Below, one piece after another: positions 1-16,560 of a stretch of 16,560 nucleotides of DNA. The position numbers and the translations under genes were made by a program. Under the pieces are notes generated by a model. The model did no database searches, was not told the origin of the DNA, and worked only from the letters and a program-made list of their open reading frames with translations. Origin of the DNA: Fibrobacter sp. (lineage in GTDB: Bacteria > Fibrobacterota > Fibrobacteria > Fibrobacterales > Fibrobacteraceae); NCBI GenBank assembly GCA_017550445.1, contig JAFZOV010000152.1, positions 1 to 16,560 of the forward strand. Direction: 5' to 3'. Each line of letters opens with the position of its first letter. Within the stretch, counting starts at the first letter, position 1.

Positions 1-99
1 AAAACGGTGCGCTGGTACTTGGACAACCAGGAATGGCTCGACAACATCACCAGCGGCGACTACGAGAAGTATTACGAAAAAATGTACGGAAACAGATAA
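1..99 (+). CDS. rfbB: dTDP-glucose 4,6-dehydratase, C-terminal fragment (partial)
   Basis: The window opens inside a reading frame that runs 32 codons to a TAA at 97-99. The visible peptide contains TVRWYLDNQEWLDNITSGDY and ends in KMYGNR. A 'T(V)xWYLxNxxWL' segment near the end of the protein is typical of RmlB/RfbB, the NAD-dependent short-chain dehydrogenase/reductase that converts dTDP-glucose to dTDP-4-keto-6-deoxyglucose in rhamnose synthesis. The stop codon overlaps the start of the next gene by one base (TAATG), so the two are translationally coupled, and that next gene is the following pathway step (RfbC), which supports the call. The catalytic and nucleotide-binding parts lie outside the window, so the assignment rests on the tail motif and the neighbour. 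Confidence 0.8.
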   Translation, partial: KTVRWYLDNQEWLDNITSGDYEKYYEKMYGNR

Positions 100-662
100 T
101 GGGCAAGTTTAACTTTATCAAAACCTCTATCGAAGGTGTAACAATCATTGAGCCGACGGTCTTTGGCGACCATCGCGGCTACTTTATGGAAACCTACAAC
201 AAGGCCGAATTCGATGCTGCCGGCTTGAACATGGTTTTTGTACAAGATAACGAATCCAGAAGCAAAAAGGGCGTGCTTCGCGGACTGCATTTCCAGAAGA
301 AGAATCCGCAGGGCAAGCTCGTTCGCGTGATTGAAGGCGAAGTGTTTGACGTCGCTGTAGACCTGCGCAAGGGTAGCCCCACGTTCGGCAAATGGGAAGG
401 TGTTGTGCTTTCTTCCGAAAATAAGAAACAGTTCTACATTCCCGAAGGCTTTGCTCACGGCTTTGTGGTGCTCAGCGAAACGGCGACTTTCGTGTACAAG
501 TGCACCCGCCTCTACGACCCCAAGGACGAAGGAGGCCTGATGTGGAACGATCCCGAAATCGGCATCAAGTGGCCGGTGGGCAATGGTTTCGAACCGCTGC
601 TTTCCGAGAAAGACACGAAGAACCCGGCTCTTAAGGATTTGAACTTCGCGTTTGAATTGTAA
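99..662 (+). CDS. rfbC: dTDP-4-dehydrorhamnose 3,5-epimerase
   Basis: This is a cupin-fold epimerase of 187 residues, the normal length for RmlC/RfbC. It epimerises C3 and C5 of dTDP-4-keto-6-deoxyglucose on the way to dTDP-L-rhamnose in the cytoplasm. Visible hallmarks are GDHRGYFMETY at 23-33, the signature GVLRGLHFQ at 58-66 with the expected catalytic His64, PEGFAHGF at 115-122, and the FVYKCTRLYDP segment at 131-141 carrying the expected active-site Tyr. The ATG at 99 overlaps the upstream stop by one base. An in-frame upstream start at 33 would lie inside rfbB and add an unrelated Arg-rich peptide, so I reject it. A palindromic hairpin follows the stop. The call is very secure. Rhamnose is probably a component of the surface glycan served by the export genes downstream. 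Confidence 0.96.
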   Translation: MGKFNFIKTSIEGVTIIEPTVFGDHRGYFMETYNKAEFDAAGLNMVFVQDNESRSKKGVLRGLHFQKKNPQGKLVRVIEGEVFDVAVDLRKGSPTFGKWEGVVLSSENKKQFYIPEGFAHGFVVLSETATFVYKCTRLYDPKDEGGLMWNDPEIGIKWPVGNGFEPLLSEKDTKNPALKDLNFAFEL

Positions 663-669
663 TTCCAAT

Positions 670-696
670 TGTCATGCCCGCGCAGGCGGGCATCTC
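670..696. repeat. Palindromic repeat, copy 1 (intergenic), possible weak terminator
   Basis: An 8-bp perfect stem (ATGCCCGC at 674-681, GCGGGCAT at 686-693) has a GCAG loop and lies 8-12 bases after the rfbC stop. A second copy of the same 27-base unit occurs at 16076-16102 with 24 of 27 bases identical, there inside a coding region. This marks it as a dispersed repeat family rather than a site evolved for rfbC. The bases after the stem (CTCTTTTG) are only moderately T-rich, so any terminator role is secondary. Confidence 0.7.
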
Positions 697-712
697 TTTT
701 GTAAGAATTTTC

Positions 713-718
713 TATCTT
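713..718 (+). promoter_or_regulatory. Candidate -10 box (TATCTT) close to a start codon
   Basis: TATCTT lies nine bases before the ATG at 727. The phosphatase gene has no Shine-Dalgarno sequence, and transcription from this box would begin at or next to the start codon, giving a leaderless or nearly leaderless mRNA. No convincing -35 hexamer is visible. This is a weak call made mainly because the same arrangement occurs at 4011-4018. Confidence 0.3.
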
Positions 719-726
719 AATTGTTA

Positions 727-1173
727 ATGAAACACATTCTTGTTGTATGTACTGGTAATATATGCCGTAGCCCTACAGGTGAATACCTTTTGAAGAAGGA
801 ACTGGGGGAAGGTTTTGATGTAATGAGTGCTGGCCTTGGGGCCCTGGTGGATCACCCGGCCCATGAACTGAGCCAAAAAATCGCTCTTGAACACGGTGTC
901 GATATGAGCGCACATCGCGCTCGTCAGATAAATCTGGACATTTTGAAGTGGGCCGATCTCATCTTGGTGATGGAAAACGGTCATAAGATGGATTTGCTGC
1001 ACCGTTATCCGTGGCTCGAAGGTAAGGTTTTCCGTTATGGCGAACCGCAGCGGGTGGATGTACCTGACCCGTATCGTCGCCCTGAAAATGCTTTCGTGCT
1101 GGCGTGGAATTTTATCTCTAAACTGACCCCGTACTGGGTAGAAAAAATCAAACAAAGCGAAGGCCAGGCGTAG
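727..1173 (+). CDS. Low-molecular-weight protein-tyrosine phosphatase (Wzb-like)
   Basis: This is a 148-residue cytoplasmic phosphatase of the arsenate-reductase-like LMW-PTP fold, full length for the family. The P-loop signature CTGNICRSP sits at 8-16 (nucleophile Cys8, Arg14, C-x5-R). The general-acid motif DPY is at 114-116. In capsule and exopolysaccharide systems such enzymes (Wzb, Etp) dephosphorylate the Tyr-rich tail of the Wzc-type co-polymerase. The position between rfbC and a Wza-type export gene fits that role. No Wzc or other BY-kinase is visible in the window, so its partner must be elsewhere. I chose ATG at 727 over the in-frame TTG at 721 because ATG is the stronger codon and gives the usual N-terminus (MKHILVVCTGN). 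No Shine-Dalgarno sequence is seen. Confidence 0.93.
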   Translation: MKHILVVCTGNICRSPTGEYLLKKELGEGFDVMSAGLGALVDHPAHELSQKIALEHGVDMSAHRARQINLDILKWADLILVMENGHKMDLLHRYPWLEGKVFRYGEPQRVDVPDPYRRPENAFVLAWNFISKLTPYWVEKIKQSEGQA

Positions 1174-1194
1174 TCTGGCTAAAAGGGTTAATTT

Positions 1195-2448
1195 ATGAAG
1201 AAAATGAGTTTGGGTCTTGGACTTGTTGCCGCCGCTGCTTTGAGCGGTTGCGCTCTCGGACCGCAGATGCAGATGAGTGTGCCGGGCGACGAAGCCGAAT
1301 ATAACGGTAAGATCGTGCGCATCCATGACATTGGTGCCGGTGATTTGGGCACTGCAACGGCTTCTGCCGACAGCAATGATAGTGAATTCGGTGATTTGAA
1401 GGATCTGTTGGTGGATTCCTTGCCTGAACTGGAATACCGTATTGGACCACTGGACATGGTTCAGGTTGTGGTGTGGGAACACCCGGAACTGACTTCTCCG
1501 ATGGGTCAATACCAGCCGGCTGGCCAGAAGGTGACTACCGATGGTAAGCTTTTCTACCCGTATGCAGGCGAACTTCAGGCTGCTGGTCTTACTGCCCAGG
1601 AACTCCGCGCCGAAATCACCAAGCGTCTTTCTGACAAGATCTTGAACGATCCGCAGGTAGATGTCCGCGTGACGGGTTACTATAGCCGTAAGGCATTTGT
1701 GGCGGGTGCCGTTGAAAAACCGGGCATTGTTTCGTTCAATGAAAACCCGATGACTTTGCCCGATGCTATTGCCTATGCTGGTGGCTTTACGGACAAGGCG
1801 GACCCTTCTGCCATGCAGATCCGTCGTGGCGACAAGGTTTACAATATCAATTACCTTAATGCCTTTAATGCGAACTTGCCTCTTGAACGCTTGATGATCA
1901 AGCCTGATGACCAGATCTTGGTGCCGGCCCTTACTGAAACCCAGAAAGACCAGAAGGCCTATGTGATGGGCGAAGTGGGCAGGCCCGGTATTGTCAACAT
2001 CTATAACGGTAATTTGACCCTGGCCGAGGCCCTGGCTACTGCCGGTGGCTTGCAGGCCTTGAACGCTACTGCTCGCGGTATTTATGTTATCCGCAATACT
2101 TCTGAAAATCAGATCGACGTGTTCCAGCTGAATGCAAAGAATGCAATGGCCTTGGCGATGGCTGATCGATTCAAGCTGAATTCTCGCGACATCGTGTACG
2201 TGGATGCTTCTGATCTCGCTACCTGGAACCGCCTCGTGAGCTTGATCTTCCCGTCTGTTAACATGGTTTACTACGGCGCTTTGGCTGCTCATGAAGTCCA
2301 TGTGGTTAAGGATGACTATACTCCGAAGCACAGCTCTAGCAGCAGTAGCAGTTCCACTACGAATAATAATTCGAACACTGGCAATGGTACAGGCACTGGT
2401 ACTGGTACGAATAACAATAATACGACTACTAAATCGCTGTTCTGGTAA
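1195..2448 (+). CDS. Wza-type outer-membrane polysaccharide export lipoprotein
   Basis: This protein has 417 residues and a lipoprotein signal peptide (MKKMSLGLGL, then lipobox LSGC with Cys19). A polysaccharide export domain spans about 79-160 (YRIGPLDMVQVVVWEHPELT). Two SLBB domains follow at about 166-245 (AFVAGAVEKPGIV) and 255-338 (YVMGEVGRPGIV). The segment after 338 (DLATWNRLVSLIFPSV) resembles the amphipathic C-terminal helix that forms the outer-membrane helical barrel in E. coli Wza. The product should be an outer-membrane channel for capsule or exopolysaccharide. Unusually, residues 380-413 form a low-complexity Ser/Thr/Asn/Gly tail ending in SLFW. An AAAAGGG Shine-Dalgarno sequence (1181-1187) precedes the ATG. 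The spacing of 21 bases from the phosphatase suggests co-transcription. Confidence 0.92.
   Translation: MKKMSLGLGLVAAAALSGCALGPQMQMSVPGDEAEYNGKIVRIHDIGAGDLGTATASADSNDSEFGDLKDLLVDSLPELEYRIGPLDMVQVVVWEHPELTSPMGQYQPAGQKVTTDGKLFYPYAGELQAAGLTAQELRAEITKRLSDKILNDPQVDVRVTGYYSRKAFVAGAVEKPGIVSFNENPMTLPDAIAYAGGFTDKADPSAMQIRRGDKVYNINYLNAFNANLPLERLMIKPDDQILVPALTETQKDQKAYVMGEVGRPGIVNIYNGNLTLAEALATAGGLQALNATARGIYVIRNTSENQIDVFQLNAKNAMALAMADRFKLNSRDIVYVDASDLATWNRLVSLIFPSVNMVYYGALAAHEVHVVKDDYTPKHSSSSSSSSTTNNNSNTGNGTGTGTGTNNNNTTTKSLFW
2332..2436 (+). repeat. Low-complexity Ser/Asn/Gly-Thr coding tract
   Basis: The 3' end of the export gene is a run of AGC/AGT serine codons, then AAT-rich asparagine codons, a GGTACx-type Gly-Thr alternation and a second Asn/Thr run. 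It encodes a flexible hydrophilic tail of about 35 residues after the last structured segment. Such tracts are prone to slippage and probably vary in length between strains (inference). Confidence 0.7.
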
Positions 2449-2467
2449 TCGTTAAGGATGGGATATA

Positions 2468-3844
2468 ATGATTAACTTGATTCTTTGTGGTGGTTCGGGT
2501 ACTCGCCTTTGGCCTGTGAGCCGTTCCCTGATGCCCAAGCAGTTTGCCCCGCTCTTTGACGGACAGTCCCTTTTCCGTAAGACGGTGGTCACCAATTCCG
2601 CCGTTTGCGAATCGCAGTTTATCGTGAGCAATGCCGACCAGTTCTTCTTGGCCAAGGATCAGCTCGAAATGGAAGGTATGAAGGGTGCCAAGTTCCTTCT
2701 GGAACCGGTGGGCCGTAACACAGCCCCTGCTATCGCTCTCGCTTGCCTTACCATGGATCCCGAAACCATCGTGCTGGTTTCTCCGTCGGACCACGTAATC
2801 CGCAAGAAAGACGAATACAAGAAGGTTCTGCTCCGCGCCCAGGAACTTGCCGAAGCTGGCAACCTGGTGACCTTCGGCATTACGCCGACTAGCCCTGAAA
2901 CGGGCTATGGCTACATCGAAGCCGATGGCGAAAATGTAAAACGCTTCGTAGAAAAGCCTGACCGCGCTACCGCCGAAAAGTACCTGCTGGCAGGCAACTT
3001 CTATTGGAATAGCGGCATCTTCTGCTTCAAGGCGAAGACGTTCCTCTCTGAACTCGGCAAGTACTCTCCGGAAATGCTCGCTGCTGCAAAGAAGGCTCTT
3101 TCCAATGCGCCTATTGAAGATGGCGAACCCATCCGTATCGATCGCGACGACATGATGGCTATTCCGTCGAACTCCATCGACTACGCTGTCATGGAAAAAT
3201 CTAACAAGGTGAAGGTGGTCCCCAGCGATATCGGTTGGAGTGACCTCGGTAGCTTCGATAGCCTTTATGGCGAATACCCGCACGACGAAAACGGCAACAA
3301 CGTGAACCCGCGCCACATTGCCGTGGACTCCAAGAATTCCTTGGTGATGGGCTCTCAGCGTGCCATTGCTACGATTGATCTCGACAAGATGCTTATCGTC
3401 GATACTCCGGATGCACTTCTGGTCGCTCCGCTCAGCAGCAGCCAGAAGGTGAAGAAGGTGGTGGAAGAACTTAAGGAACGCGGTTCTGACCTCATTAACG
3501 TGCCGCAGACCGTAAGCCGCCCGTGGGGAACTTACTCCGTGCTGGAATCCTCCGAACGCTACAAGATGAAGCGTATCGTGGTGAAGCCGGGCAAGCGTCT
3601 CAGCCTGCAGAAGCATCTGCACCGCTCGGAACACTGGGTGGTTGTAAGCGGTACTGCTACGGTGACTGTCGGCAAGAACGTGTTCTACGTGCGTCCGAAC
3701 GAATCGACTTACATCCCCGTGGGTGAAGTTCACCGCCTGCAGAACGAAGGCAAGCTCCCGCTTGTAATCGTTGAAGTTCAGGTGGGCGAATACACTGGCG
3801 AAGATGACATCATCCGCGTCGAAGACGACTTCCACAGAAACTAA
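2468..3844 (+). CDS. manC: Mannose-1-phosphate guanylyltransferase / mannose-6-phosphate isomerase
   Basis: This is a 458-residue bifunctional type II enzyme (ManC/CpsB/AlgA family, slightly short of the usual ~475-480). The N-terminal nucleotidyltransferase carries GGSGTRLWP at 8-16, the DH pair in SPSDHVI (105-111), the FVEKPDR sugar-binding motif at 160-166 and NSGIF at 181-185. The C-terminal cupin isomerase starts at RPWGTYSVLE (351-360) and contains KRLSLQKHLHRSEHWVVVSG (376-395) and GEYTGEDDIIRVED (440-453), both family hallmarks. It supplies GDP-mannose for surface polysaccharide. The metal-site motif reads HLHRSEHW where many homologues have HHHRAEHW, so one His of the triplet is Leu. 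Start at ATG 2468 follows an AAGGA Shine-Dalgarno sequence. It lies 19 bases after the export gene, so the two are probably one transcript ending at the terminator 3929-3955. Confidence 0.95.
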   Translation: MINLILCGGSGTRLWPVSRSLMPKQFAPLFDGQSLFRKTVVTNSAVCESQFIVSNADQFFLAKDQLEMEGMKGAKFLLEPVGRNTAPAIALACLTMDPETIVLVSPSDHVIRKKDEYKKVLLRAQELAEAGNLVTFGITPTSPETGYGYIEADGENVKRFVEKPDRATAEKYLLAGNFYWNSGIFCFKAKTFLSELGKYSPEMLAAAKKALSNAPIEDGEPIRIDRDDMMAIPSNSIDYAVMEKSNKVKVVPSDIGWSDLGSFDSLYGEYPHDENGNNVNPRHIAVDSKNSLVMGSQRAIATIDLDKMLIVDTPDALLVAPLSSSQKVKKVVEELKERGSDLINVPQTVSRPWGTYSVLESSERYKMKRIVVKPGKRLSLQKHLHRSEHWVVVSGTATVTVGKNVFYVRPNESTYIPVGEVHRLQNEGKLPLVIVEVQVGEYTGEDDIIRVEDDFHRN

Positions 3845-6014: not shown

Positions 6015-6048
6015 CTTCCTCGAAAAGATTTGATTTTTGCGTTTTTTC

Positions 6049-6052
6049 GGAG
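6049..6052 (+). promoter_or_regulatory. Shine-Dalgarno sequence deciding the batA start
   Basis: GGAG ends five bases before ATG 6058. This favours that ATG over the in-frame TTG at 6037, which has no ribosome-binding sequence. Confidence 0.65.
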
Positions 6053-6057
6053 ATTTT

Positions 6058-7161
6058 ATGGATATTGGTGCGTTGCATTTTCAGAATCCCGAGGCCTTCT
6101 GGCTCCTAATTTTGGTTCCTGTTTTAGTCGGCTGGTACATCTATCGTGAACACCGCCGCAAGAGTACGATTAAATTTCCGGCCCTTTCGATTGCAAAACG
6201 TGCAGTGCCGAGCCGTCGTGTCAAGTTCCGTCATATTGTTCCGATTTTGCGCCTCGCCGCCCTCGTTTGCTTTGTAGTGGCGCTTGCCCGTCCGCAGAAC
6301 GCCATGGAAGTGGAATATACCTCGACCGATGGAGTCGACATTATGCTTGCGCTTGACGTTTCGGGCTCCATGGGAACGCTCGATATGTTGACCCGCATGG
6401 AACAGGCAAAGCTTGGCGTGATGAATGCGGAACGTATTCTCAAATCGGGCGATTATTGGAAGTATAGTCGTTTGGGTTATGCCCAGCAGGTGATTGCGGA
6501 TTTTATTCAGAAGCGTCATAGCGACCGCATCGGTCTTTCGGCTTTTGGTTCCCGCTCGGTGACTCAGTGCCCCTTGACGCTGGATTACGGCTCGCTGCTT
6601 GAAATTTTGAGGGCGTCCGATGACCTTGCCCGCGATTCGATTATGAATAGCCGCACCGCCATTGGCGACGGCCTGATGAATGCTCTTGCGCGTTTGCAAA
6701 AGTCCGAAGCCAAGTCCAAGGTGGTGGTGCTTTTGACGGATGGCCGCGACAATGCGAGCGTGGTGCCGCCGATGCGTGCTGCCGATGTGGCTCAGTCGCT
6801 TGGCGTTAAAGTCTATACGGTGGGCGTGGGCAAAAAGAATGGCAAAATTCTTGCGTTCCAGCAGAATCCCTGGACGGGCGAAATCTCTTGGGGCGAACGA
6901 GACATTACCCCCGAAGAAGGTATTGACGAAGGCGTGCTGAAGTCGGTGGCGCAAAAGACCGGAGGCCGCTTCTACCGCGCCGAAAATAAGGAAGAACTCG
7001 AAAAGATTTATTCCGAAATCGATGAACTCGAAAAGACGGAAATCGAGACGGTGGCTTACGCCCGCTATGCCGAAAAGTTCTACCCGTGGCTTTTGGCAGG
7101 TGCTATCCTCATTTTACTTGAATTGTTGCTTGCGAATACGCGCTTTGTGCGCATCCCGTAA
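6058..7161 (+). CDS. batA: BatA-like membrane-anchored VWA-domain protein
   Basis: This 367-residue protein has the Bat layout: an N-terminal pair of membrane segments (about 13-29 FWLLILVPVLVGWYIY, and 62-77 ending in ALARPQ), a VWA domain from about 92 to 310, and a C-terminal membrane helix (342-360). The metal-ion-dependent adhesion site is complete: DVSGS (Asp100, Ser102, Ser104), Thr200 in NSRTAIGDG, and Asp228 in LLTDGRDN. Bat (Bacteroides aerotolerance) proteins work with MoxR AAA+ ATPases and influence envelope integrity and stress tolerance in Bacteroides, Leptospira and Francisella; their biochemical role is unsettled. About 24 extra residues (roughly 106-138) follow the DxSxS motif compared with the BatB next door. 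It is followed 12 bases later by batB. Confidence 0.9.
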   Translation: MDIGALHFQNPEAFWLLILVPVLVGWYIYREHRRKSTIKFPALSIAKRAVPSRRVKFRHIVPILRLAALVCFVVALARPQNAMEVEYTSTDGVDIMLALDVSGSMGTLDMLTRMEQAKLGVMNAERILKSGDYWKYSRLGYAQQVIADFIQKRHSDRIGLSAFGSRSVTQCPLTLDYGSLLEILRASDDLARDSIMNSRTAIGDGLMNALARLQKSEAKSKVVVLLTDGRDNASVVPPMRAADVAQSLGVKVYTVGVGKKNGKILAFQQNPWTGEISWGERDITPEEGIDEGVLKSVAQKTGGRFYRAENKEELEKIYSEIDELEKTEIETVAYARYAEKFYPWLLAGAILILLELLLANTRFVRIP

Positions 7162-7173
7162 TGGAGGCTTTAG

Positions 7174-8202
7174 ATGCGATTTGCTGAACCGATGTTTTTG
7201 TGGGGCCTTTTGACGCTCCCTCTGTTTGCGCTCCTTTTTGTGTATGCTTACCATCGCCGCAAAAAGCTGGCGGCCCGCTTTGTTTCGCTTTCGATGTTGC
7301 CAAAGCTTTCGACCTCGGTGTCGCCGTGGCGCCGCCTTGCCAAGGTAACGATTTTGCTGTTCGCAATCGCCTTCTTGTTTGTGGCTCTTGCTCGCCCGCA
7401 GTGGGGGCGCAAAATGGAGCATATCGAACGTCGCGGCCTTGATTTGGTATTGTTGCAGGACATTTCGCTCTCGATGCTGGCTGAAGACATCAAGCCGAAC
7501 CGTTTGACACGTAGCCGTCATGAAATTTCTGCGTTCCTGGAATCGCTTTCGGGTGACCGCGTGGGCCTTGTTGCTTTCTCCGGTGAGGCCCAGGTGATGG
7601 TGCCGCTCACTCTTGATTATGGTACCGTGCAGATGATGCTCCGCGAACTTACGCCGGGTTGGCTGATGCCGGGAACGAACCTTGAAAAGGCGATTCGCAA
7701 GGGCATGGACCTTTACAGAAATTCGGGGAGTGCCGGGCAGTACTCCGTGATGATTCTCATGAGCGATGGCGAAGAGCTTGAAGCTGCTGCCGTAAACGCC
7801 GCCAAGGAAGCCGCTGAAATGGGAATCCGCATTTATACAATCGGTATCGGTTCTCGCGAAGGCGTGCCTATTCCCGTGCCCTCTAAGAACGGCGAGGTCG
7901 CCTACAAGAAGGATATGCAGGGCAACATCGTGACGACCCGCTTGGAAGACGGAACGCTGCAAGAAATTGCGAGCGTAACGGGTGGGCTCTATTTCTATGC
8001 AAGCCCTGGCGAATTCCAGCTGCAAAAGGTGCTTACCGAAATTGCAAGCCTCGAAAAGAAGGAACAGGCGTCCGATCGTATGGAAAATTATCAGGACCGT
8101 TACCAGATTTTCCTCGGCCTTGCGGCACTCCTTTTCTTGATAGAAGCGCTGGTGTCTGAACGGGGCCGTCGTCGCCGTGCTGGAGCTGGTCGATTCAATT
8201 AA
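7174..8202 (+). CDS. batB: BatB-like membrane-anchored VWA-domain protein
   Basis: This is a 342-residue paralogue of the preceding gene with the same architecture. Membrane segments lie at about 8-27 and 58-74 (ending ALARPQWGRK), the VWA domain runs from about 88 to 300, and a C-terminal helix spans 309-327 before a basic tail (GRRRRAGAGR). The MIDAS is DISLS (Asp96, Ser98, Ser100), Thr168 in PGTNLEKA, and Asp198 in MSDGEE, so metal-dependent ligand binding is probably retained even though Gly of the usual DxSGS is Leu. PNRLTRSRHEI (108-118) and FSGEAQVMVPLT (135-146) are typical of BatB. A strong GGAGG Shine-Dalgarno sequence (7163-7167) precedes the ATG. No batC, batD or batE follows. The next gene is unrelated and lies beyond a long non-coding stretch. 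Confidence 0.9.
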   Translation: MRFAEPMFLWGLLTLPLFALLFVYAYHRRKKLAARFVSLSMLPKLSTSVSPWRRLAKVTILLFAIAFLFVALARPQWGRKMEHIERRGLDLVLLQDISLSMLAEDIKPNRLTRSRHEISAFLESLSGDRVGLVAFSGEAQVMVPLTLDYGTVQMMLRELTPGWLMPGTNLEKAIRKGMDLYRNSGSAGQYSVMILMSDGEELEAAAVNAAKEAAEMGIRIYTIGIGSREGVPIPVPSKNGEVAYKKDMQGNIVTTRLEDGTLQEIASVTGGLYFYASPGEFQLQKVLTEIASLEKKEQASDRMENYQDRYQIFLGLAALLFLIEALVSERGRRRRAGAGRFN

Positions 8203-8371
8203 AATGGATAATAAAAAAATAAGATTGAAAAATAATTTTTCATTCTTGTTTTGACCTTAGAATTCAGAAAACTGAATTTGTTTACACACTATTTGCACGC
8301 TTGTTTTAAAATGCAAATTTCTTTTTAGGTGTATTTTTTTCCCTTTTTTGCTATTATTCCAATGCGGTGTT

Positions 8372-8409
8372 AAAAATAGGGTGGATTCCCCCCGAATTGC
8401 CCCATTTTT
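8372..8409 (+). terminator. Terminator- or attenuator-like hairpin in the leader
   Basis: AAAAAT (8372-8377) pairs with ATTTTT (8404-8409), then GGG (8379-8381) with CCC (8400-8402), then ATTC (8385-8388) with GAAT (8394-8397) around a CCCCC loop, with one A-C mismatch and one small internal loop. The 3' arm ends in five Ts. It lies about 110 bases before the DUF4956 start, so it could be a terminator for read-through from batAB or an attenuator if transcription starts upstream. Confidence 0.4.
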
Positions 8410-8509
8410 GTAGGAACGTTTGGTTTTTGTTCATCCATTTTTACACAAAAATTCGCTATTTTGCGAGTGATTAAAGTAAATTTTGGCTGAAAAAGAAAAA
8501 GTAAACCAC

Positions 8510-8513
8510 GGAG
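8510..8513 (+). promoter_or_regulatory. Shine-Dalgarno sequence deciding the DUF4956 gene start
   Basis: GGAG lies five bases before ATG 8519. An in-frame TTG at 8483 would add twelve mainly charged residues but has no ribosome-binding sequence, so ATG 8519 is preferred. Confidence 0.65.
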
Positions 8514-8518
8514 TCCCT

Positions 8519-9202
8519 ATGCTCGATCTATTAGCCGTCCAATCCGGCACCGCCAATGCCACTCTTATTACATTGGCGTACACCTTGATCCTCACATTTA
8601 TCCTTTCCTCGGTGATTGCTTGGACCTACGAGAAAACCTTCCTTGGTTTATCGTATTCCAGAAACTTTGTGCAGGCCATTGTGCTGAGTGCCGTGGTCGC
8701 TGCAACGGTGATGCAGGCTATCGGTGATAACGTGGGCCGCGGCTTGGGTATGATGGGTGCTCTTTCGGTGGTTCGCTTTAGAACAAGCTTTAAGGACCCG
8801 CGCGACATCATGTTCGTGTTCGCCTCTTTGGGCGCCGGTATCGGTTGCGGTGTGTATGCCTGGGGCGCTGCCGTGGGCGGAACCATCGCCTTTAGCGCGG
8901 TTGCCTTCCTTCTTTCTCGTACGGGACTCGGTACCAAGCATTTCTTTGACGGCATGCTCCGCTTCGCTTTGCCGAACGAACCCAAGGTTCGCGGCCAGAT
9001 CGAAGATATCATGAAGTCGAACCTCAAGACGTTTATTTTGATTACCATGCGCGAAGTGGATGGCGGTGCCCGTCTCGATGTGGCCTACCAGATTCGCCTG
9101 CGTGCCACTCACCCCGCTGCAGAAATCCTGAGTGAACTTTCGAAGATCGAAGGCATCTCGGACGTGCAGTTCATGATGCAAGACGCCACGACGGAAATGT
9201 AA
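8519..9202 (+). CDS. DUF4956-family inner-membrane protein
   Basis: This is a 227-residue protein with four predicted membrane helices (about 17-37, 50-68, 97-115, 116-134). Between helices 2 and 3 lies the family hallmark GALSVVRFRTSFKDPRDIMF (80-99). The C-terminal part (about 155-225) is soluble and looks like a small alpha/beta (ferredoxin/ACT-like) domain: TFILITMREVDGG and IEGISDVQF. The arrangement of short hydrophobic helices, an RFR motif and an ACT-like tail recalls MgtC-type proteins, although that similarity is only by eye. The function is undetermined. DUF4956 genes are commonly found beside VTC-domain polyphosphate polymerases and CotH-type proteins, as is the case here with VTC three genes downstream. 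It is the only inner-membrane multi-pass protein in this unit, so it is the likely membrane partner of the adaptor protein that follows 10 bases later. Confidence 0.85.
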   Translation: MLDLLAVQSGTANATLITLAYTLILTFILSSVIAWTYEKTFLGLSYSRNFVQAIVLSAVVAATVMQAIGDNVGRGLGMMGALSVVRFRTSFKDPRDIMFVFASLGAGIGCGVYAWGAAVGGTIAFSAVAFLLSRTGLGTKHFFDGMLRFALPNEPKVRGQIEDIMKSNLKTFILITMREVDGGARLDVAYQIRLRATHPAAEILSELSKIEGISDVQFMMQDATTEM

Positions 9203-9212
9203 GGGAGGCGGT

Positions 9213-10277
9213 ATGAACAAGCTTAGCGATATGCTCGAAACTTTTTGGAATACTCATAAGAGTAACGCCGGTGTTGCTTACGTTTACGGTCACAAGCTTT
9301 CTTTGGCCTGGATTCTTTGCGTGATTATCGCCATTATTCTGGGCTACATGTACCAGGGTAAGATTGCGACTTTCCAGGGAATTGCGGAAGCTGCCGAAAC
9401 GACGATTAGTCTTCCGAGCCCGACCGAAGTGGTGAAGGTACACGTGATGCCGGGTCAGTCCATTAATGCGGGCGACACCATTGTGGAACTTAACCGCCCG
9501 GACCTGACGCTCCGCATTGCCGAGGTGACTCGCGAACTTGACGCTAGCGAAGGCCGTAGCAACCTCTCTGCTGCAGACATCGACCAGAAGGTTGCCGCTG
9601 TCAAGGCCGACCTTGCCACGAAGACCCTTACGCTCAAGTCTGAAATCAACAGACTCGAAACGGAATACAAGAAAAACAAGGAAATTGCGGCAAGGCTCAA
9701 GAGCTTAAAGAATTCCAATTCCGAAGCTGATGGCAACGATGCGATGGCCATGCAGATTAAGAGCTTGAAGAATGAACTCGCTGTTGCAAACTCCAATGCC
9801 AACGAACAGATCAAGCTTCTGCGCAGCAGCAACCGCTTGCAGAAGGATGCCGGCAAGAGCGAAGTCGAAAACTTGAAGAAGGAACTCGAAGAACTCAAGA
9901 AGCAGCAAGAAGAATTGACCCAGATTGCCAAGGAAAGCTGGGTGGTGGGTTCTGTGAATGTGCATGACGGCGAAAAGGTGTCTAGCTTCGCTCCGATTGT
10001 AACGCTTACCCACAAGTCTCCGACGCTCGTTCGTGGCTACATTCACGAAAGAATGTACCAGCGCATGGATATTGGCGAAACGGTTAATGTGAAGCCGCTC
10101 GGTGCAACCGGCAAGCCGGTGAAGGGCAAGGTCGTTGGCCTCTCCAGCCGCATCGTGGAATTCCCCGTGCGTATGTGGAAGATGCCTGAAATGCCGATTC
10201 ACGGCCGCGAAGTCATTATCACGATTCCTGCCGAAAACCCGTTCCTCTTGGGTGAAATGGTAACCATATCTGAATAA
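9213..10277 (+). CDS. HlyD-like periplasmic adaptor (membrane fusion protein)
   Basis: This is a 354-residue protein anchored by one N-terminal helix (31-47, LAWILCVIIAIILGYMY) with a short cytoplasmic segment before it. A split lipoyl/barrel-sandwich domain flanks a hairpin: the first half is about 62-100 (SLPSPTEVVKVHVMPGQSIN) and the second about 243-268 (VVGSVNVHDGEKVSSFAPIV). Between them, 101-240 is a long charged coiled coil rich in Lys/Glu/Leu heptads, suited to reach a TolC-type channel. The beta-barrel part (272-353) includes GYIHERMYQRMDIGETVNVK. A strong GGGAGG Shine-Dalgarno sequence (9203-9208) precedes the start. Adaptors of this type bridge an inner-membrane transporter and an outer-membrane channel. 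No ATPase, RND or MFS pump is encoded in this unit, so the upstream DUF4956 protein is the candidate partner. Confidence 0.88.
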   Translation: MNKLSDMLETFWNTHKSNAGVAYVYGHKLSLAWILCVIIAIILGYMYQGKIATFQGIAEAAETTISLPSPTEVVKVHVMPGQSINAGDTIVELNRPDLTLRIAEVTRELDASEGRSNLSAADIDQKVAAVKADLATKTLTLKSEINRLETEYKKNKEIAARLKSLKNSNSEADGNDAMAMQIKSLKNELAVANSNANEQIKLLRSSNRLQKDAGKSEVENLKKELEELKKQQEELTQIAKESWVVGSVNVHDGEKVSSFAPIVTLTHKSPTLVRGYIHERMYQRMDIGETVNVKPLGATGKPVKGKVVGLSSRIVEFPVRMWKMPEMPIHGREVIITIPAENPFLLGEMVTISE

Positions 10278-10282
10278 ATTTT

Positions 10283-11674
10283 ATGAATCGTTTTGCTTTT
10301 ATTTCTTTGTTAGTCGCAGCCCCTTTGATTGCCGCCCCCCTTACCTGGGAGACGCTCATCAAGTCCGCTGACGATGATGTTCGTTATCAGGCTTCTAAGA
10401 AGCGTGCCAACATTGCGACTTCTCGCAGCACAAAATTGTGGGACAAGCTTGAACTGCGTTACAAACTGGATGGCTTTAGCTTCGCTCAGCATGATTTCGA
10501 ACTTCGCATGACTCCGAAGGCTTTTGGTGAAGGTGCTGCTGACCGCGCTCATTACGAAGCGCAGATGGCTTATGCGAATGCCCATTTGGCCGAAGATCGC
10601 GGTGTCCTTCTGTATGACCGTTACGAACGCGCTATTCATTATTTAATGCGCAAGCGTATCAATGCGTTGAACCAGGAACTCTACCAGATTAATGCGGACC
10701 GTATCGAAGTGCTGCACATTAAGTCGGGTTCGGCAGCGTTCAATCCGCAGGACTTGATGTCTGCTCTCGAAAAAGAAGCCTCTATCCGTGCCGCTCTCAT
10801 TAACGATTCGAATTCCCTCCAGAATTCCGAAAGAAAACTGCGTGTGTGGATTCCCGATTTCGACAGCATCGAGCTGGATTCTACCTGGCTTCCGTCGATG
10901 GAAGAAATTGAAGCCCAGCTGAAAGATGGCGTGGAAGTGAGCGACAATTTCCCGCAGCTTGCAATTGCCAAGGGCAAGATGGATTCAGAAAAGGCCCGCG
11001 CCAAGCAGGATGTGGCTAGCCGCCGTGATTACATTTCTCACATCGGTATCGGCTACTCTATGAAGATCGAATCCTTGATGAAAAAGTACAAGGATATGGG
11101 CTATTCTGATCTGTGTACGAAGAATGGTGAGTATTACGACGCTGATGCCTGTGCAGAATGGCTGAAAAATGCTGAGGACGAAGTCACGGGCCTTTTTGAC
11201 AATACTTACGCCATTCAGAAGGAAGTGGCCGACAAGGATAACCGCCTTACTCGCGACAAGTTCTATGCGACGCTGGCGATCAAGCTCCCGTTCTTTGACA
11301 GCAACAAGGATAACGATTTGCGTAACCAGGTGGCAGACCTGGATGCCGAAGGCGACTATATGGAAAAGGTTCGCGATGTGAACGTGAAGGTGTCCCGCAT
11401 CGTGGAACAGATTAACGGGTTCCTTGCCCAGTGGAAGGTGCAGAAGGATTTTGCCGACAAGGTGAAGGCCGGAAACATCTTTGAACAGTTCGCAAAGGAT
11501 GCCGGTTCTGATCCGCTTCTTTTGTTGCGCGCCCGCGAATCCGCTGTGGAAAGCGAACTGAATGCGGCCAAGCTCGAAACCGACATTTACGACCTTTATC
11601 TTGAACTGTTGCAGTATGCAGGCCAGCTTTCTAAGGAAGGCGTGCAGAACCACTTAGTTGGGGGGCTCAAGTAG
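10283..11674 (+). CDS. TolC-like outer-membrane channel protein (divergent)
   Basis: This is a 463-residue protein with a Sec signal peptide (MNRFAFISLLVAAPLIAA, cleavage probably after Ala18). The mature part is mainly long charged helices. Two pairs of amphipathic strands match the two OEP repeats: about 56-78 (LELRYKLDGFSF and DFELRMTPKAF) and about 250-336 (SHIGIGYSMK and FYATLAIKLPFF). This is the TolC/OEP layout, although similarity to classical TolC is low. An expanded loop of about 60 residues between the strands of the second pair carries two cysteines (Cys278, Cys290) that could form a disulfide on the extracellular side. The start lies 5 bases after the adaptor stop. It is likely the outer-membrane exit of the machine encoded by this operon. 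Confidence 0.8.
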   Translation: MNRFAFISLLVAAPLIAAPLTWETLIKSADDDVRYQASKKRANIATSRSTKLWDKLELRYKLDGFSFAQHDFELRMTPKAFGEGAADRAHYEAQMAYANAHLAEDRGVLLYDRYERAIHYLMRKRINALNQELYQINADRIEVLHIKSGSAAFNPQDLMSALEKEASIRAALINDSNSLQNSERKLRVWIPDFDSIELDSTWLPSMEEIEAQLKDGVEVSDNFPQLAIAKGKMDSEKARAKQDVASRRDYISHIGIGYSMKIESLMKKYKDMGYSDLCTKNGEYYDADACAEWLKNAEDEVTGLFDNTYAIQKEVADKDNRLTRDKFYATLAIKLPFFDSNKDNDLRNQVADLDAEGDYMEKVRDVNVKVSRIVEQINGFLAQWKVQKDFADKVKAGNIFEQFAKDAGSDPLLLLRARESAVESELNAAKLETDIYDLYLELLQYAGQLSKEGVQNHLVGGLK

Positions 11675-11675
11675 T

Positions 11676-12506
11676 ATGGCCGAAGCCCGCGGATTTAGCC
11701 TTCTCGAAAGGTTCGAACTCAAGTACCACATTCCTGTGGAATGGGCGGACCGTATCGGCGCATTCCTTGCTCCGTACTGCGAAGAAGACTACTATTCTAA
11801 AATTACCCCGGGCGGATTCTACTGGATTACGAACCTCTACTTGGATTCGCCTTCTTGGACGTTCCTGGGCTGGAAAAAGAAACAGTTGCTGGACCGTTTT
11901 AACATGCGAATTCGCACGTACGGTGAACACCCCGCTCAAGACGGAACATTCCACTTTGAATGCAAGCGCAAGATCAAGAATATTTGCTATAAGAGTCGTG
12001 GAACCATCAAGGGCATTAATCCGGGCGAAGTTTGGAACATGAAGCCCGAAGACTGGCCGTGCAAGGGCGAAAAGGACCGTATGTACGTGAAGGATTTCTT
12101 GTACAAGACGGAACTCTACAATGCGCACCCGCGCCTGTTGACGCAGTACAAGCGTCGCGCTTGGTTCGGGCTTCGCGAAGAATATTCCCGCGTGACCATC
12201 GATACCGGCATGCGATTCCGCGAAGAAAACGGTTTTGACTATACCGTTGACCCGCATTACATGCATTCCACGGGTATTCCCAAGTTCTTTCAGCCGGGTT
12301 GCGATGCTGTACTCGAACTCAAGTGCCCCTGTTCGCAGGTGCCGTACTGGATGTTCGACTTGATTAAGTTCTTGAACCTGAAACACGGTGCATTCTCTAA
12401 ATTCGGCAATGCCGCAGCGGAATGGAAACGTGTTTATGAGAATCCCCGCCGATTCAAGACTCCTTATTGGACGAAACTGGCGGTGGGCGCGGGCGAAAAT
12501 TTTTAA
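11676..12506 (+). CDS. VTC-domain polyphosphate polymerase-like protein
   Basis: This is a 276-residue cytoplasmic protein consisting of a VTC tunnel domain alone; no SPX domain and no membrane helix. Family motifs are visible in order: ERFELKYHIP (11-20), YWITNLYLDS (49-58), FNMRIRTYG (75-83), FHFECKRKI (92-100), CYKSRGTI (104-111), TQYKRRAW (156-163), SRVTIDTGMRFR (171-182), AVLELKC (211-217) and FSKFG (240-244). Compared from memory with yeast Vtc4, Lys16, Arg78/Arg80, Lys97, Lys106, Tyr158/Arg160, Arg172, the metal-binding Glu214 and Ser241-Lys242 fall where the phosphate-binding and catalytic residues are expected. It probably makes polyphosphate from ATP. The ATG at 11676 follows the tolC-like stop by one base; a G-run at 11660-11665 may be its ribosome-binding site. 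An in-frame TTG at 11658 is rejected. Confidence 0.9.
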   Translation: MAEARGFSLLERFELKYHIPVEWADRIGAFLAPYCEEDYYSKITPGGFYWITNLYLDSPSWTFLGWKKKQLLDRFNMRIRTYGEHPAQDGTFHFECKRKIKNICYKSRGTIKGINPGEVWNMKPEDWPCKGEKDRMYVKDFLYKTELYNAHPRLLTQYKRRAWFGLREEYSRVTIDTGMRFREENGFDYTVDPHYMHSTGIPKFFQPGCDAVLELKCPCSQVPYWMFDLIKFLNLKHGAFSKFGNAAAEWKRVYENPRRFKTPYWTKLAVGAGENF

Positions 12507-12536
12507 AATAGAAGTAAGTTTTACGAGGATACCTCT

Positions 12537-14237
12537 ATGGATATCAAAAAAATTCTTTTGGCTGGCTCGGCTGTAACCGCAATGGTCTTGGCCACCTCCT
12601 GTTCCAGCAGCTCGTCGTCGGAACCCGAGCCTGATAATCCGGATACGCCGACATCTTCGTCGGAAGAAGGTGCTGACCCCAATTCTTCGGGTGATGCTAC
12701 GGGTTCGTCCAGTAGTCAAGCCAATAACGGGAATAAAAATACATCGTCATCTTCGGTGGTCGATGAAACGGTGACCCAGATGGCCATCACTGAAATTATG
12801 TACAACGCTCCCGATGGTTCTGAACTGGAATGGGTTGAAGTGGCAATTGCCAGCGGCCCGGATATTCCCAGTATGCTGGCGTCGGGCGTGCGCTTGGATG
12901 GCGCCGTTACCTATCAGTTCCCGAATGATCCTTTGAAGAAGGGTGAATATGTCGTTGTGACCAACAACAGGGATCTCTTCATGCAGGAGTATCCGGATTA
13001 TGCAGGAAAGCTCTATGGCCCTTGGGACAAAGACCCCTCTACGGGTGCTGTGGCAAAGCTTTCTAACGAAGGCGATGTGATTGATGTGAAGATTATGGGT
13101 GAAGGTGACGTGAGCTGCTCTTACAGTATGGAACCGCCTTGGCCGTCGCTGGCTAACGGTAAGGGCCGTACCTTGGTGTACAAGGGTGGAAATGCCGCTC
13201 AGGCTACCTCTTGGGGCGCAAGCAAAACGCTTAAGGGTAACCCGGGTGCCGGTAACGACGAATGGCTTACGACATCGAACATCCGTCTGAATGAGATTAT
13301 GCCGAATCAGACGGGTAAGGCTTCTTGGGTGGAACTCTACAATGCGGGTTCTGCAGAAGTGGATGTGACTGGCTGGATTTTTGAATCTAAGGTCCGTAAG
13401 GAAAAACTCACGATTAAAGCCGGTACTGTTCCCGCAGGTGGTTATCTTGTTCTGAACGGCGATGCAGACTTTGTCAATAGCGAAGGTGAGGCTACGGAGC
13501 TGATTGTAAGTCCTATTGGCGGCTCTTATTACCTGTATGGCGCTACCGAAGGTGACGAATCTAGTTTGCTTTTGCCTTCTAGTGAACTTTCGAGTGGCGT
13601 GGTTGACTTGAGCGATGGCTCTACTGCCCAGGGCGCCTTGAAGGAAGCCACTCCGGGTGCTGCCAATGCGGCTCTTTACATTGGCCCGGTGGTAATCAAC
13701 GAAATTCATTATCACCCCAATGAAGAAGACCTGAACGACGTGGAATTCCTGGAACTCAAGAATACTTCGTCTGAAGCGATTACCATGTACCAGTCGCTTA
13801 GCAATGGCAGCAGGGGCTGGAAGGTTGAAGGCGTTAATTTCGAATTCTCTGCAACGGATGTTATTCCGGCGGGTGGTTTTGCGGTACTCTTCCCTGAATC
13901 GCTCTCGACAGCCGTTGGTGAGACTAAGCTGCGTAATCGTTACGAACTTGCGGCTGATGTCTTGGTGAAGTTCTACAAGGGTAAGCTTTCGAACCGCGGT
14001 GAAACCGTTGCGGTCAAGAAGCCCTATTCCTTGATCAAAGACTCGTCGAATCCCTTAAATGACCAGTGGTTCTATGATTGGTCCGACGCTTCGCTCTATA
14101 GCGATAGCTGGCGCGGTGATGGAGTCGATTACAAGCGCGCGGATGGTTACGGCTACAGCTTGCAGCGTAAGGATGTTTCGACCATGGGTTACGAAGCTTC
14201 TGCCTGGACTGTTGGCGAGCCTACTCCGGGTAAGTAA
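12537..14237 (+). CDS. Lipoprotein with three lamin-tail-like domains
   Basis: This is a 566-residue lipoprotein: signal peptide with lipobox ATSC (Cys22), then a Ser/Pro/Asp-rich linker (23-75) of the kind common in Fibrobacter lipoproteins. Three lamin-tail-like (LTD) immunoglobulin-fold modules follow: about 82-235 (MAITEIMYNAPDGSELEWVE), 248-375 (IRLNEIMPNQ, WVELYNAGSAEVDVTGW) and 384-565 (VVINEIHYHPNEEDLNDVEF). No catalytic motif is seen; LTD modules are regarded as binding domains and often accompany CotH-kinase and VTC genes. The protein probably sits in the outer membrane and may hold or anchor the exported polymer or a partner. The gene has GAGG (12525-12528) before the ATG, lies 30 bases after the VTC gene, and ends with tandem TAA TAA before a strong terminator. 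Confidence 0.85.
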   Translation: MDIKKILLAGSAVTAMVLATSCSSSSSSEPEPDNPDTPTSSSEEGADPNSSGDATGSSSSQANNGNKNTSSSSVVDETVTQMAITEIMYNAPDGSELEWVEVAIASGPDIPSMLASGVRLDGAVTYQFPNDPLKKGEYVVVTNNRDLFMQEYPDYAGKLYGPWDKDPSTGAVAKLSNEGDVIDVKIMGEGDVSCSYSMEPPWPSLANGKGRTLVYKGGNAAQATSWGASKTLKGNPGAGNDEWLTTSNIRLNEIMPNQTGKASWVELYNAGSAEVDVTGWIFESKVRKEKLTIKAGTVPAGGYLVLNGDADFVNSEGEATELIVSPIGGSYYLYGATEGDESSLLLPSSELSSGVVDLSDGSTAQGALKEATPGAANAALYIGPVVINEIHYHPNEEDLNDVEFLELKNTSSEAITMYQSLSNGSRGWKVEGVNFEFSATDVIPAGGFAVLFPESLSTAVGETKLRNRYELAADVLVKFYKGKLSNRGETVAVKKPYSLIKDSSNPLNDQWFYDWSDASLYSDSWRGDGVDYKRADGYGYSLQRKDVSTMGYEASAWTVGEPTPGK

Positions 14238-14270: not shown

Positions 14271-14296
14271 AAAACCGCCCCTAAAAGGCGGTTTTT
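14271..14296 (+). terminator. Rho-independent terminator closing the DUF4956-VTC operon
   Basis: A perfect 9-bp stem, AAAACCGCC (14271-14279) and GGCGGTTTT (14287-14295), encloses a seven-base loop and runs into T residues. It lies 33 bases after the lipoprotein stop codon and 31 before the next gene start, so it clearly separates the two transcription units. Confidence 0.92.
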
Positions 14297-14327
14297 CTGT
14301 ATGGAAAAATTTATTTTTATAGGTGCT

Positions 14328-16136
14328 ATGAAGAAGAGTTTGTTTTTGGGTATTGTTGCAAGTGTTTCTGCTTTTGCGGCGCCGATTTCGCTATCGGATG
14401 CGATTGCAATGGCAAAAGCGAACAATTCGCAAATTAAGGCCGAAAGGGCCAAAGTGGATATGGCCGAAAGTGGGCGAACCGAGGCTCGATCCCGCTTTAT
14501 GCCGCAACTGTCGTTGACGGCGAGCGTCACAAAGATTAACGACCCCATCTATATTGACTTGGGTGAAATTCAGCAGGCCATGAGTGGCCTTGCGGGCGGT
14601 CTTGCAACGGTTGGCCCTGCCGCGGTGTATTCCAAGGCCTACATAGACGCTTATAACAAGGCGCAGGCCGGTTATAAGCAGGCTTATAATGGAGCTTTGG
14701 CGGCTGGTATGACCGAAGAGCAGGCGAACGCCTTTGCCGAAAGCAAAGTGGGCGGTACTGCGCAAGAGATTGCCCAAAAAACGGCTGACAAGTATGCGCT
14801 GGAATCGCAACAGAAGCTTGAAACGGCCCAGTCGCAGATTGATGATGCTGATTTTAGAATGAAGGTGCAGGACGATGTGTTCTTTAATGCACGTCTTACT
14901 GCCATTTGGCCGATTTTTACAGGTCTCAAGATTTATTCTGCCTATGATGCCGCCAAAGAAAATGTGAATGCCAAGAAGGCTGCGTTCGACATGGCGCAGA
15001 ATACCATTTTGATGGATGTGGCGACTAAGTACTTTACGCTTCGCTTGGCCGAAGAATTGACGGTGCTTCGAGAAAGCACCAAGAAAAATTTAGAAGAACA
15101 TTTGGCCCGCTCCAAGAAACTGGAAGAAGGCGGCCAGATTAGTAAGGCAGAACGCCTGCGTGCCGAAGTTGCCTTGGCCGAAGCCGAAAACGCCTTGGAA
15201 GATTCTTATCGCGATCAGACGCTTGCTCGTTTAGCGCTTGCAAGCCTGTTGCATACCGATACGAATATTACAGCCATTACGCCGGTACTCGCTCCGGAAC
15301 AGACCTTTGGCATGGATGAATTTAAGCAGCTTGCGATGGATAGACACCCAGGACTGCGCCAGTTGCGTACCGAGCGCAAGCGTAGCCAAGATGCGGTAAG
15401 CGCCGCCCGCGCGGATTATTTCCCGACGGTTGCGCTCTTTGCCTACAAGGAGCTTTATACTCGCGACTTGACGCTCCTGGAGCCCGATTGGGCGGTGGGA
15501 GCCAAGATGCAGTGGGACTTGTTCAAGGGTGGCGAAACTCGTTCCAAGGTGAGTAATGCCAAGGCTCTCGACCGTTCGCTTTCGAGTATGGAAGAGCAGA
15601 CGATGGATAACATCGGCTTGCTTGTTGAAAAACGTTGGCGTGAAATGGAACATGCCAAGAGCCGCCTGGAAAGTTTGAAGAAAACTCGCGAACTTGCCGA
15701 AGAAGCGCACCGCAGTCAGACGCTTGCTTATGAAGCGGGCCTTGCAACGGGCTTGGATGTGGTGGATGCCGAACTCGCCCTTTCTCGCTTGCAGGTGGCT
15801 GACCTGAAGGCTCATTACGATGCCGTGGTCGCATGGCTTGGACTTTTGGAAGCCAGCGGTGAAGTGGTGAATGCGGGCGAGATGCTGAAAGCAGTGGGCA
15901 GTGAGCAGTCCGCAGTGAGTAGTGAAATGAATAATGAAGAAAAGGTTGCTGCTTCTGTTGAAGCGGCTGCGCCGACAGAAGCGCCCGCAGCAAATGACGC
16001 TTCGAACGTCATTGCGAGCGAAGCGACGCAATCCACAGCAGCAGATTCTGCACAAATCGCCCCCGCGTCCAATGATGTCATCCCCGCGAAGGCGGGAATC
16101 TCCCCTGAACCGGCTGCTGCTACACCTGCAAATTGA
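14328..16136 (+). CDS. TolC-family outer-membrane efflux protein with repeat-derived tail
   Basis: This is a 602-residue protein with a Sec signal peptide (MKKSLFLGIVASVSAFA, cleavage before AP) and two OEP repeats. The first repeat starts at ISLSDAIAMAKANNSQIKAE (20-39); the second lies at about 325-510 and includes KMQWDLFKGGETRSKVSNA (393-411) and the helix ending in LATGLDVVDAELALSRLQVA (472-491). A helical insertion of about 100 residues (75-175, Ala/Gln/Lys-rich) separates the strands of the first repeat. The last 80 residues are disordered, Ala/Glu/Pro-rich, and partly made of nucleotide repeat elements. Together with the adaptor gene 21 bases downstream it forms an efflux or type I secretion set. 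ATG 14328 is chosen because it begins the signal peptide; an in-frame ATG at 14301 almost touches the terminator and has no ribosome-binding site. Confidence 0.9.
   Translation: MKKSLFLGIVASVSAFAAPISLSDAIAMAKANNSQIKAERAKVDMAESGRTEARSRFMPQLSLTASVTKINDPIYIDLGEIQQAMSGLAGGLATVGPAAVYSKAYIDAYNKAQAGYKQAYNGALAAGMTEEQANAFAESKVGGTAQEIAQKTADKYALESQQKLETAQSQIDDADFRMKVQDDVFFNARLTAIWPIFTGLKIYSAYDAAKENVNAKKAAFDMAQNTILMDVATKYFTLRLAEELTVLRESTKKNLEEHLARSKKLEEGGQISKAERLRAEVALAEAENALEDSYRDQTLARLALASLLHTDTNITAITPVLAPEQTFGMDEFKQLAMDRHPGLRQLRTERKRSQDAVSAARADYFPTVALFAYKELYTRDLTLLEPDWAVGAKMQWDLFKGGETRSKVSNAKALDRSLSSMEEQTMDNIGLLVEKRWREMEHAKSRLESLKKTRELAEEAHRSQTLAYEAGLATGLDVVDAELALSRLQVADLKAHYDAVVAWLGLLEASGEVVNAGEMLKAVGSEQSAVSSEMNNEEKVAASVEAAAPTEAPAANDASNVIASEATQSTAADSAQIAPASNDVIPAKAGISPEPAAATPAN
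15891..15925 (+). repeat. Heptanucleotide tandem repeat inside the TolC tail
   Basis: There are five consecutive 7-base units close to GCAGTGA (the variants end GG, GA, CC, GA and the last begins GTAGT). Because seven is not a multiple of three, gain or loss of one unit shifts the frame. It encodes AVGSEQSAVSSE at the point where the conserved OEP fold ends. Confidence 0.75.
16007..16035. repeat. Palindromic repeat (second type), in frame in the TolC tail
   Basis: The outer stem ATTGCG (16011-16016) and CGCAAT (16027-16032) surrounds AGCGAAGCGA. Translated, it reads NVIASEATQS. From general knowledge this wording is a very common palindromic repeat in many bacterial genomes and gives this peptide when read in this frame. 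Confidence 0.7.
16076..16102. repeat. Palindromic repeat, copy 2 (within coding sequence)
   Basis: CCCGC (16083-16087) pairs with GCGGG (16092-16096) around GAAG. The unit matches 24 of 27 bases of the intergenic copy at 670-696 in the same orientation. Translated, it gives DVIPAKAGIS in the TolC C-terminal tail. Confidence 0.75.
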
Positions 16137-16157
16137 TTTTAGAAACGGAGAAAAAGA

Positions 16158-16560
16158 ATGAACGTCTTGAAAGTGATTGGAAAAACTTTGGTCGTCTTGG
16201 CGTTGATTGCCTTGATCGGGCTTGGAATTATCACGTTGCAGAAGTTTGCGACGGAACCCCGTGACGCTTACTTGCAGGGGCAAATGGAAGCTCGCCGCGT
16301 GTTGGTGGCGGGTAAGGTTCCCGGCCGCGTGGAACAGTTGTTCTTCCGCGAAGGCGACATGGTTGAAAAGGATGCCATCGTGGCCATCATTAGCAGCCCC
16401 GAAATCGAGGCGAAAAAGATTCAGGCCCAGGGTGCTTTGGGCGCTGCCCGCGCTCAGGCGAACAAGGCAAAGAACGGCGCCCGCTCCGAAGACATTACGG
16501 CTCTCAAGGCGATGGCTTCGCGTGCTCAAGATGCCGCAAACCTCGCTAAGAATACTTACG
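16158..16560 (+). CDS. HlyD-family efflux adaptor, N-terminal part (cut by window end)
   Basis: The first 134 codons of a periplasmic adaptor are visible. A membrane anchor at about 11-28 (LVVLALIALIGLGIITLQ) is followed by YLQGQMEARRVLVAGKVPGR (38-57), the first half of a barrel-sandwich (lipoyl-like) domain with VEQLFFREGDMVEKDAIVAI, and the start of an Ala-rich coiled coil (from about 83). The QMEARRV and KVPGRV wording resembles YhiI/YbhG-type adaptors that work with ABC-2 exporters, so ABC transporter genes probably follow outside the window. CGGAG at 16146-16150 precedes ATG 16158, and the spacing of 21 bases from the TolC gene indicates one operon. Confidence 0.88.
   Translation, partial: MNVLKVIGKTLVVLALIALIGLGIITLQKFATEPRDAYLQGQMEARRVLVAGKVPGRVEQLFFREGDMVEKDAIVAIISSPEIEAKKIQAQGALGAARAQANKAKNGARSEDITALKAMASRAQDAANLAKNTY

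Follow-up and report, generated by a model that had tools for sequence, protein, structure and literature searches.

The stretch of DNA analysed here, referred to as the window, spans 16,560 nucleotides of a contig from Fibrobacter sp. (JAFZOV010000152.1, assembly GCA_017550445.1) and carries an operon of five genes on the forward strand. The first gene encodes a DUF4956 membrane protein of 227 amino acids (8519..9202; PF16316, E 9e-12), with predicted helices followed by an ACT-like domain, and with an RFR motif formed by R86 and R88. Next to it are encoded a HlyD-type periplasmic adaptor of 354 amino acids (9213..10277), a TolC-like outer-membrane channel of 463 amino acids (10283..11674), a VTC domain protein with the fold of Vtc4-type polyphosphate polymerases (11676..12506; PF09359, E 1e-29), and a lipoprotein with three lamin-tail (LTD) modules (12537..14237; PF00932, E 6e-28, 3 stretches). 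The five genes are co-inherited, the Vtc4-type active site is conserved, and the channel combines a TolC fold with a basic gate motif.

The conservation of this arrangement was followed across genomes. A profile scan of genome contigs with the adaptor alignment as query yielded 63 loci which, together with 49 regions around selected VTC genes, make up 112 mapped loci, at least two contigs being counted twice. An adaptor of the window's family is found in 84 of them (62 from the adaptor scan and 22 from the VTC regions), and in 71 of these 84 the genes follow the order DUF4956-adaptor-channel-VTC-LTD on one strand. Among the 13 exceptions, eight reach a contig end. In the remaining ones, the LTD part comes first, as a CotH-LTD protein (L062), an LTD match is missing and CotH lies upstream instead (L125, L126, and L133), or CotH and then DUF4956 both come after VTC (L142). 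Chance adjacency is ruled out by the conserved order, and the five-gene unit described in the initial annotation, which had been made from the sequence alone, is confirmed and stronger than first stated. Among 167 Fibrobacterota genomes, the channel is present in 107 and VTC in 136; VTC lies directly 3' of the channel in 106 of the 111 channel matches, and no genome of this phylum has the channel without VTC. The genes are also found outside Fibrobacterota, in L061 (Desulfobacterales), in L062 (Deltaproteobacteria; genome G005), and in L139 and L142, from the same phylum as G005, while channel homologues bear names from Thermodesulfobacteriota and an Anammoxibacter.

In the 84 loci, no more than 118 bases separate one of the five genes from the next, the exceptions being L127-L129, with a propeller gene, and L142, with CotH, so that no pump gene can be hidden inside the operon. 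In the mapped loci, where such genes were sought, no ABC ATPase or RND pump is encoded with the adaptor between the five genes in any of the 84. The earlier description of an operon devoid of such motors thus holds.

Component proteins

A profile built from 19 VTC proteins retrieves the yeast Vtc4 structures as top matches (3g3q, E 1e-18), with Vtc2 and Vtc3 ranking lower; used as a single query, the window protein gives only a Vtc2 match (E 0.93). The residues that we take to be catalytic in Vtc4 are K200, R264, R266, K281, R361, R373, E426, and K458, the numbering of the first four having been confirmed by counting along 8i6v_E. All of them align with residues of the window protein, and each is kept in 94 to 96 of 96 distinct VTC sequences drawn from all locus kinds, which rules out a dead paralogue and bears out the active-site motifs noted earlier. 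According to Pfam, the VTC domain stands alone in its 282-amino-acid frame, with neither an SPX domain nor a fused DUF202 pore, and no signal peptide is seen in the window protein. Across 14 selected genomes with VTC (13 Fibrobacterota and G005), whose completeness is not stated, PPK1 is present in one and Ppx/GppA in 11, and PPK2 was found in none.

The only matches from a phage collection are remote relatives of the VTC protein (24% and 27%), carried by two 'Bacteriophage sp.' records of human faecal origin that lack annotation (MT835527.1 and MT837266.1). Two VTC matches adjoin on a 4.2-kb contig in L140 (G204:C113).

In the DUF4956 protein, R86 and R88 are invariant in all 105 aligned relatives. 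The window protein is weakly similar to MgtC/SapB (E 5e-4, far under the cut-off of that family). The structure model is too weak for DUF4956 to be taken as a solved fold, the predicted ACT-like C-terminus being its only credible part. In the adaptor, PF13437 (E 2e-8) and PF16576 (E 3e-7) match above cut-off, an N-terminal hydrophobic anchor is visible in the family alignment, and a coiled coil is likely. A phytase-like beta-propeller accompanies nine loci of the window's type, fused to the adaptor in six (L062, L063, L119, L120, L122, and L123) and encoded separately in three (L127-L129); in the one scanned, the match to PF13449 (E 2e-4) is under cut-off. The lipoprotein has a lipobox-like LATSC, read from the sequence, and 69 of 73 relatives carry a loose lipobox pattern.

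The AlphaFold2 model of the channel matches the TolC fold, in agreement with the initial assignment. The Pfam family OEP scores 16.7 bits against the window protein (cut-off 22); among 34 members of the channel family, 21 match it with E <= 0.01, the best at 1.5e-7. The periplasmic gate of TolC is ringed by D371 and D374, and these positions were compared in an alignment of 106 family members, many of them close relatives, with 13 TolC-type controls (E. coli TolC and 12 proteins from G001, G005, and G021). At the D374 position, K or R is found in 86 of 106 family members and in none of the controls, which are not uniformly acidic themselves (D or E in 6 of 13, N in 4 of 13). The T376 position holds K or R in 103 of 106 members versus 2 of 13 controls, and the D371 position is mostly hydrophobic, with D in 1 of 106 members versus D or E in 10 of 13 controls. 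In the window channel, whose gate motif reads DPLLLLRARES, these two aspartates correspond to L and R, and the acidic gate is not present. Channel and TolC-type profiles compare poorly (probability 14%), and the alignment of the gate was therefore taken from MAFFT. As read from this alignment, a basic gate would fit an anionic cargo.

A candidate polyphosphate export path

The best explanation of the operon, which we hold tentatively and at close to an even chance, is a polymerase-driven trans-envelope exporter of polyphosphate that works without an ATPase. The VTC protein, at the cytosolic face, would extend a growing chain with phosphate taken from ATP. DUF4956 would receive and pass on this chain, and its invariant RFR arginines may line or guard the way across the inner membrane. 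The adaptor would link DUF4956 to the TolC-like channel, replacing an ABC or RND pump, and elongation itself would drive the chain outward until it leaves the cell. Once there, the LTD lipoprotein, together with CotH kinases, may hold or use the polymer at the surface. The export interpretation of the initial annotation is supported in part: the gene order, the TolC fold, the active site, and the pump-less operon stand, whereas polyphosphate synthesis, its crossing of the envelope, the drive by polymerisation, and the holding by the lipoprotein are putative. The charge-swapped gate and the scarcity of PPK1 and PPK2 are added clues in favor of export.

The closest precedent is the yeast VTC complex, where the Vtc4 polymerase has its own membrane pore. 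Both systems have a membrane partner and a VTC domain whose catalytic set is complete, and the coupling of synthesis to translocation is what is proposed here as well. However, the yeast proteins carry SPX and a fused DUF202, while DUF4956 is a separate protein in the operon, which further adds an adaptor, an outer-membrane channel, and a lipoprotein. With HlyD/TolC export, as in type I secretion and RND or ABC efflux, the operon shares a HlyD-type adaptor and a TolC-fold channel, but it lacks an ABC ATPase or RND pump, its inner-membrane member is DUF4956, and its gate aspartates are mostly swapped for hydrophobic and basic residues. Synthase-dependent polysaccharide secretion, known for alginate, cellulose, and Pel, has in common with the proposed exporter the idea that a product is pushed by its polymerase along an envelope path of its own. 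Contrary to those systems, the five genes encode neither a glycosyltransferase nor a TPR scaffold or beta-barrel exporter.

If it is an exporter, the operon would be a compact machine that combines an enzyme with a partner in the inner membrane and a route out of the cell, in which a TolC-type path is powered by a polymerase and not by a pump. It would offer a candidate role for bacterial VTC and DUF4956, to which none is assigned in the available parts of the literature examined, and for extracellular polyphosphate, whose placement on or outside the bacterial cell is, to our knowledge, unexplained. No description of the operon or of export by a bacterial VTC was found in a literature search made mostly without subscription papers and without preprints.

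Related loci and other readings

Three kinds of VTC/DUF4956 locus emerge from the mapping, the window's being kind A. Kind B comprises 13 regions from another Fibrobacterota branch (L100-L106, L108-L111, L113, and L114), in which VTC and DUF4956 are joined by a protein that Porin_O_P matches at E <= 0.01 in each of the 13 (best E 1.4e-5). Twelve of these regions have CotH (not seen in L101), with tandem copies in several, and 12 have a Cthe_2159-type carbohydrate-binding protein (not in L114), assigned by Pfam in two and by clustering in the rest. L117 combines VTC-DUF4956-CotH with a Porin_O_P-like protein under cut-off, and L145 a weak beta-barrel match with a gene of the Cthe_2159 cluster; in L107, L140, L143, and L146, no DUF4956 lies within the stretch available. 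The Gram-positive-type loci, plasmid records found by DUF4956, hold VTC-DUF4956 without adaptor or channel in six of six. Since DUF4956 occurs with differing outer-membrane partners, or with none, it looks like the constant membrane partner across locus kinds. A wider proposal, which we consider possible but less likely than not, is an undescribed class of bacterial secretion machine, in which a cytosolic Vtc4-type polymerase would spin polyphosphate directly to the surface by way of DUF4956, an adaptor without a pump, and a TolC channel of reversed charge, with polymerisation as the motor and DUF4956 as a common inner-membrane gate serving lineage-specific outer-membrane exits.

Several observations weigh against the export reading. 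In the literature searched, no bacterial VTC is seen to make polyphosphate. DUF4956 differs from the DUF202 pore of yeast, and its structure model is poor, with a pLDDT (predicted local distance difference test) of 59. The pattern R-x6-L-x6-S (RLS), by which adaptors of TolC pumps dock, occurs in no more than 8 of the 84 related adaptors. Of 106 channels, 8 have an acidic residue at the D374 position, and the gate patch is not purely basic, because a conserved glutamate follows the gate bases in 94 of 106. The Porin_O_P match of kind B is weak, one of the first two members scanned being under cut-off, and its identity as OprO/OprP by structure was rejected, as the profile gave no such PDB match at E <= 1. 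VTC is rare in the phylum of G005 (10 of 297 genomes), and in three of these ten the adaptor and channel adjoin it (L062, L139, and L142). Moreover, 27 of the 49 VTC regions fetched by position hold no adaptor of the window's family; 13 of them are the kind B regions, and the remaining 14 are of mixed make-up. Among these 14, some consist of VTC-DUF4956-CotH only (L115, L116, L141, L144, and L147), others of VTC and DUF4956 without CotH (L099, L112, and L134), and no outer-membrane partner was recognised in any of these eight, Pfam having covered some of the neighbours. Such loci, which occur in Fibrobacterota and in the phylum of G005 and were missed initially, count against a fixed need for a neighbouring adaptor and channel. 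They also favor a reading in which polyphosphate is kept in the periplasm or at the inner membrane, with a structural role or an unrelated efflux task left to the adaptor and channel. The tight co-inheritance of VTC with the channel and the basic gate motif speak against this reading, which is held to be very unlikely. One of these loci, L115 (G006:C35), is a second VTC-DUF4956-CotH locus in the genome of L063 and adjoins a PfkB-type kinase.

A plasmid of Hymenobacter volaticus (L148, 4754-7994), the only Bacteroidota match among the plasmid records found by DUF4956, encodes in a row an adaptor-like protein, DUF4956, and TolC, while VTC was not found in 12.6 kb; the conduit may therefore carry something else. 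The adaptor call is weak: the protein has HlyD matches under the NCBIfam cut-offs, has no Pfam match, was missed by the adaptor model, and matches the adaptor family profile with a probability of 23%. Judging from this plasmid, DUF4956, adaptor, and channel could conduct another anionic molecule, such as a phospho-glycan or a phosphorylated metabolite, with VTC sensing or modifying the cargo and no free polymer being made. Glycosyltransferases in two of the Gram-positive-type loci and in the available parts of the published Gram-positive clusters (PMC7112168), as well as capsule-type genes upstream in the window, point the same way. Nevertheless, a glycosyltransferase would not fit into any gap within the five-gene set, a ManC relative accompanies only 5 of 64 sequences, many flanks stopping before its place, and the full catalytic conservation of VTC argues for catalysis rather than sensing. 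This alternative is regarded as unlikely.

The tie to secreted CotH kinases, likewise overlooked in the initial annotation, suggests another use of the polymer. CotH is a neighbour of VTC-DUF4956 in four of the six Gram-positive-type loci, 18 of the 27 regions without adaptor, and, within the flanks fetched, 12 of the 84 adaptor loci; moreover, CotH genes occur in 14 of 14 selected VTC genomes, and in the Fibrobacter genomes checked they lie away from the operon. The Pel clusters of Gram-positive bacteria have as accessory genes CotH, a poly-phosphate polymerase, DUF4956, and DUF4832, and it was suggested that CotH may regulate Pel through phosphorylation (available parts of PMC7112168). The NELoc-2 locus of C. 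perfringens holds VTC, a membrane 'tubulin' gene, which is probably DUF4956, and CotH (PMC2879425; same locus in PMC11677781). In these clusters VTC adjoins DUF4956, as in the operon, and CotH is shared with some of its relatives, but polysaccharide genes are found there, while the window has LTD and no CotH. The available parts of the three sources mention no adaptor or TolC partner. Because the module is tied to CotH, the polymer might serve surface phosphorylation instead: VTC-DUF4956 would export short polyphosphate as a fuel or cofactor, with which CotH-type kinases and LTD proteins would modify surface proteins or glycans. However, no CotH match was found among the nine window proteins scanned, nor among five upstream, and most Fibrobacter loci lack it as far as the flanks extend. 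Additionally, the use of polyphosphate by CotH is unsupported and a TolC-like tube seems excessive for a fuel line; this reading is regarded as unlikely. In an iron-dependent gene list of B. thetaiotaomicron, DUF4956 is paired with DUF2490 (available parts of PMC10434189).

Flanking genes and boundaries

Directly 3' of the operon lie separate TolC and HlyD genes, both in the window (14301-16559) and in L002 (14125-19061). In L002, they are followed by an ABC-2 permease gene (Pfam) and a further similar-looking membrane frame. This group, also missed at first, was considered as the missing pump and rejected, being a set of its own with its own adaptor and TolC. It lies about 3 kb from the operon in L039-like loci, was not seen in L053, L057, L062, and L063, and, of the VTC regions fetched later, only L138 shows it as a cluster.

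The operon is closed by a rho-independent terminator (14271..14301), read from the sequence and from a pattern scan on the minus strand, which could act on both strands. Upstream, an AT-rich gap (8203..8518) carries a GGAG before the DUF4956 start; a promoter scan of this gap gave nothing above chance. Capsule-type genes further upstream (90-3844) encode a dTDP-4-dehydrorhamnose epimerase, a low-molecular-weight tyrosine phosphatase, a Wza-like SLBB export protein, and a ManC-type enzyme; they were rejected as operon partners on the count of ManC relatives given above. Two BatA/VWA membrane proteins are encoded in tandem at 6037-8202, a pair that precedes the operon in 14 of the 64 sequences from the first mapping.

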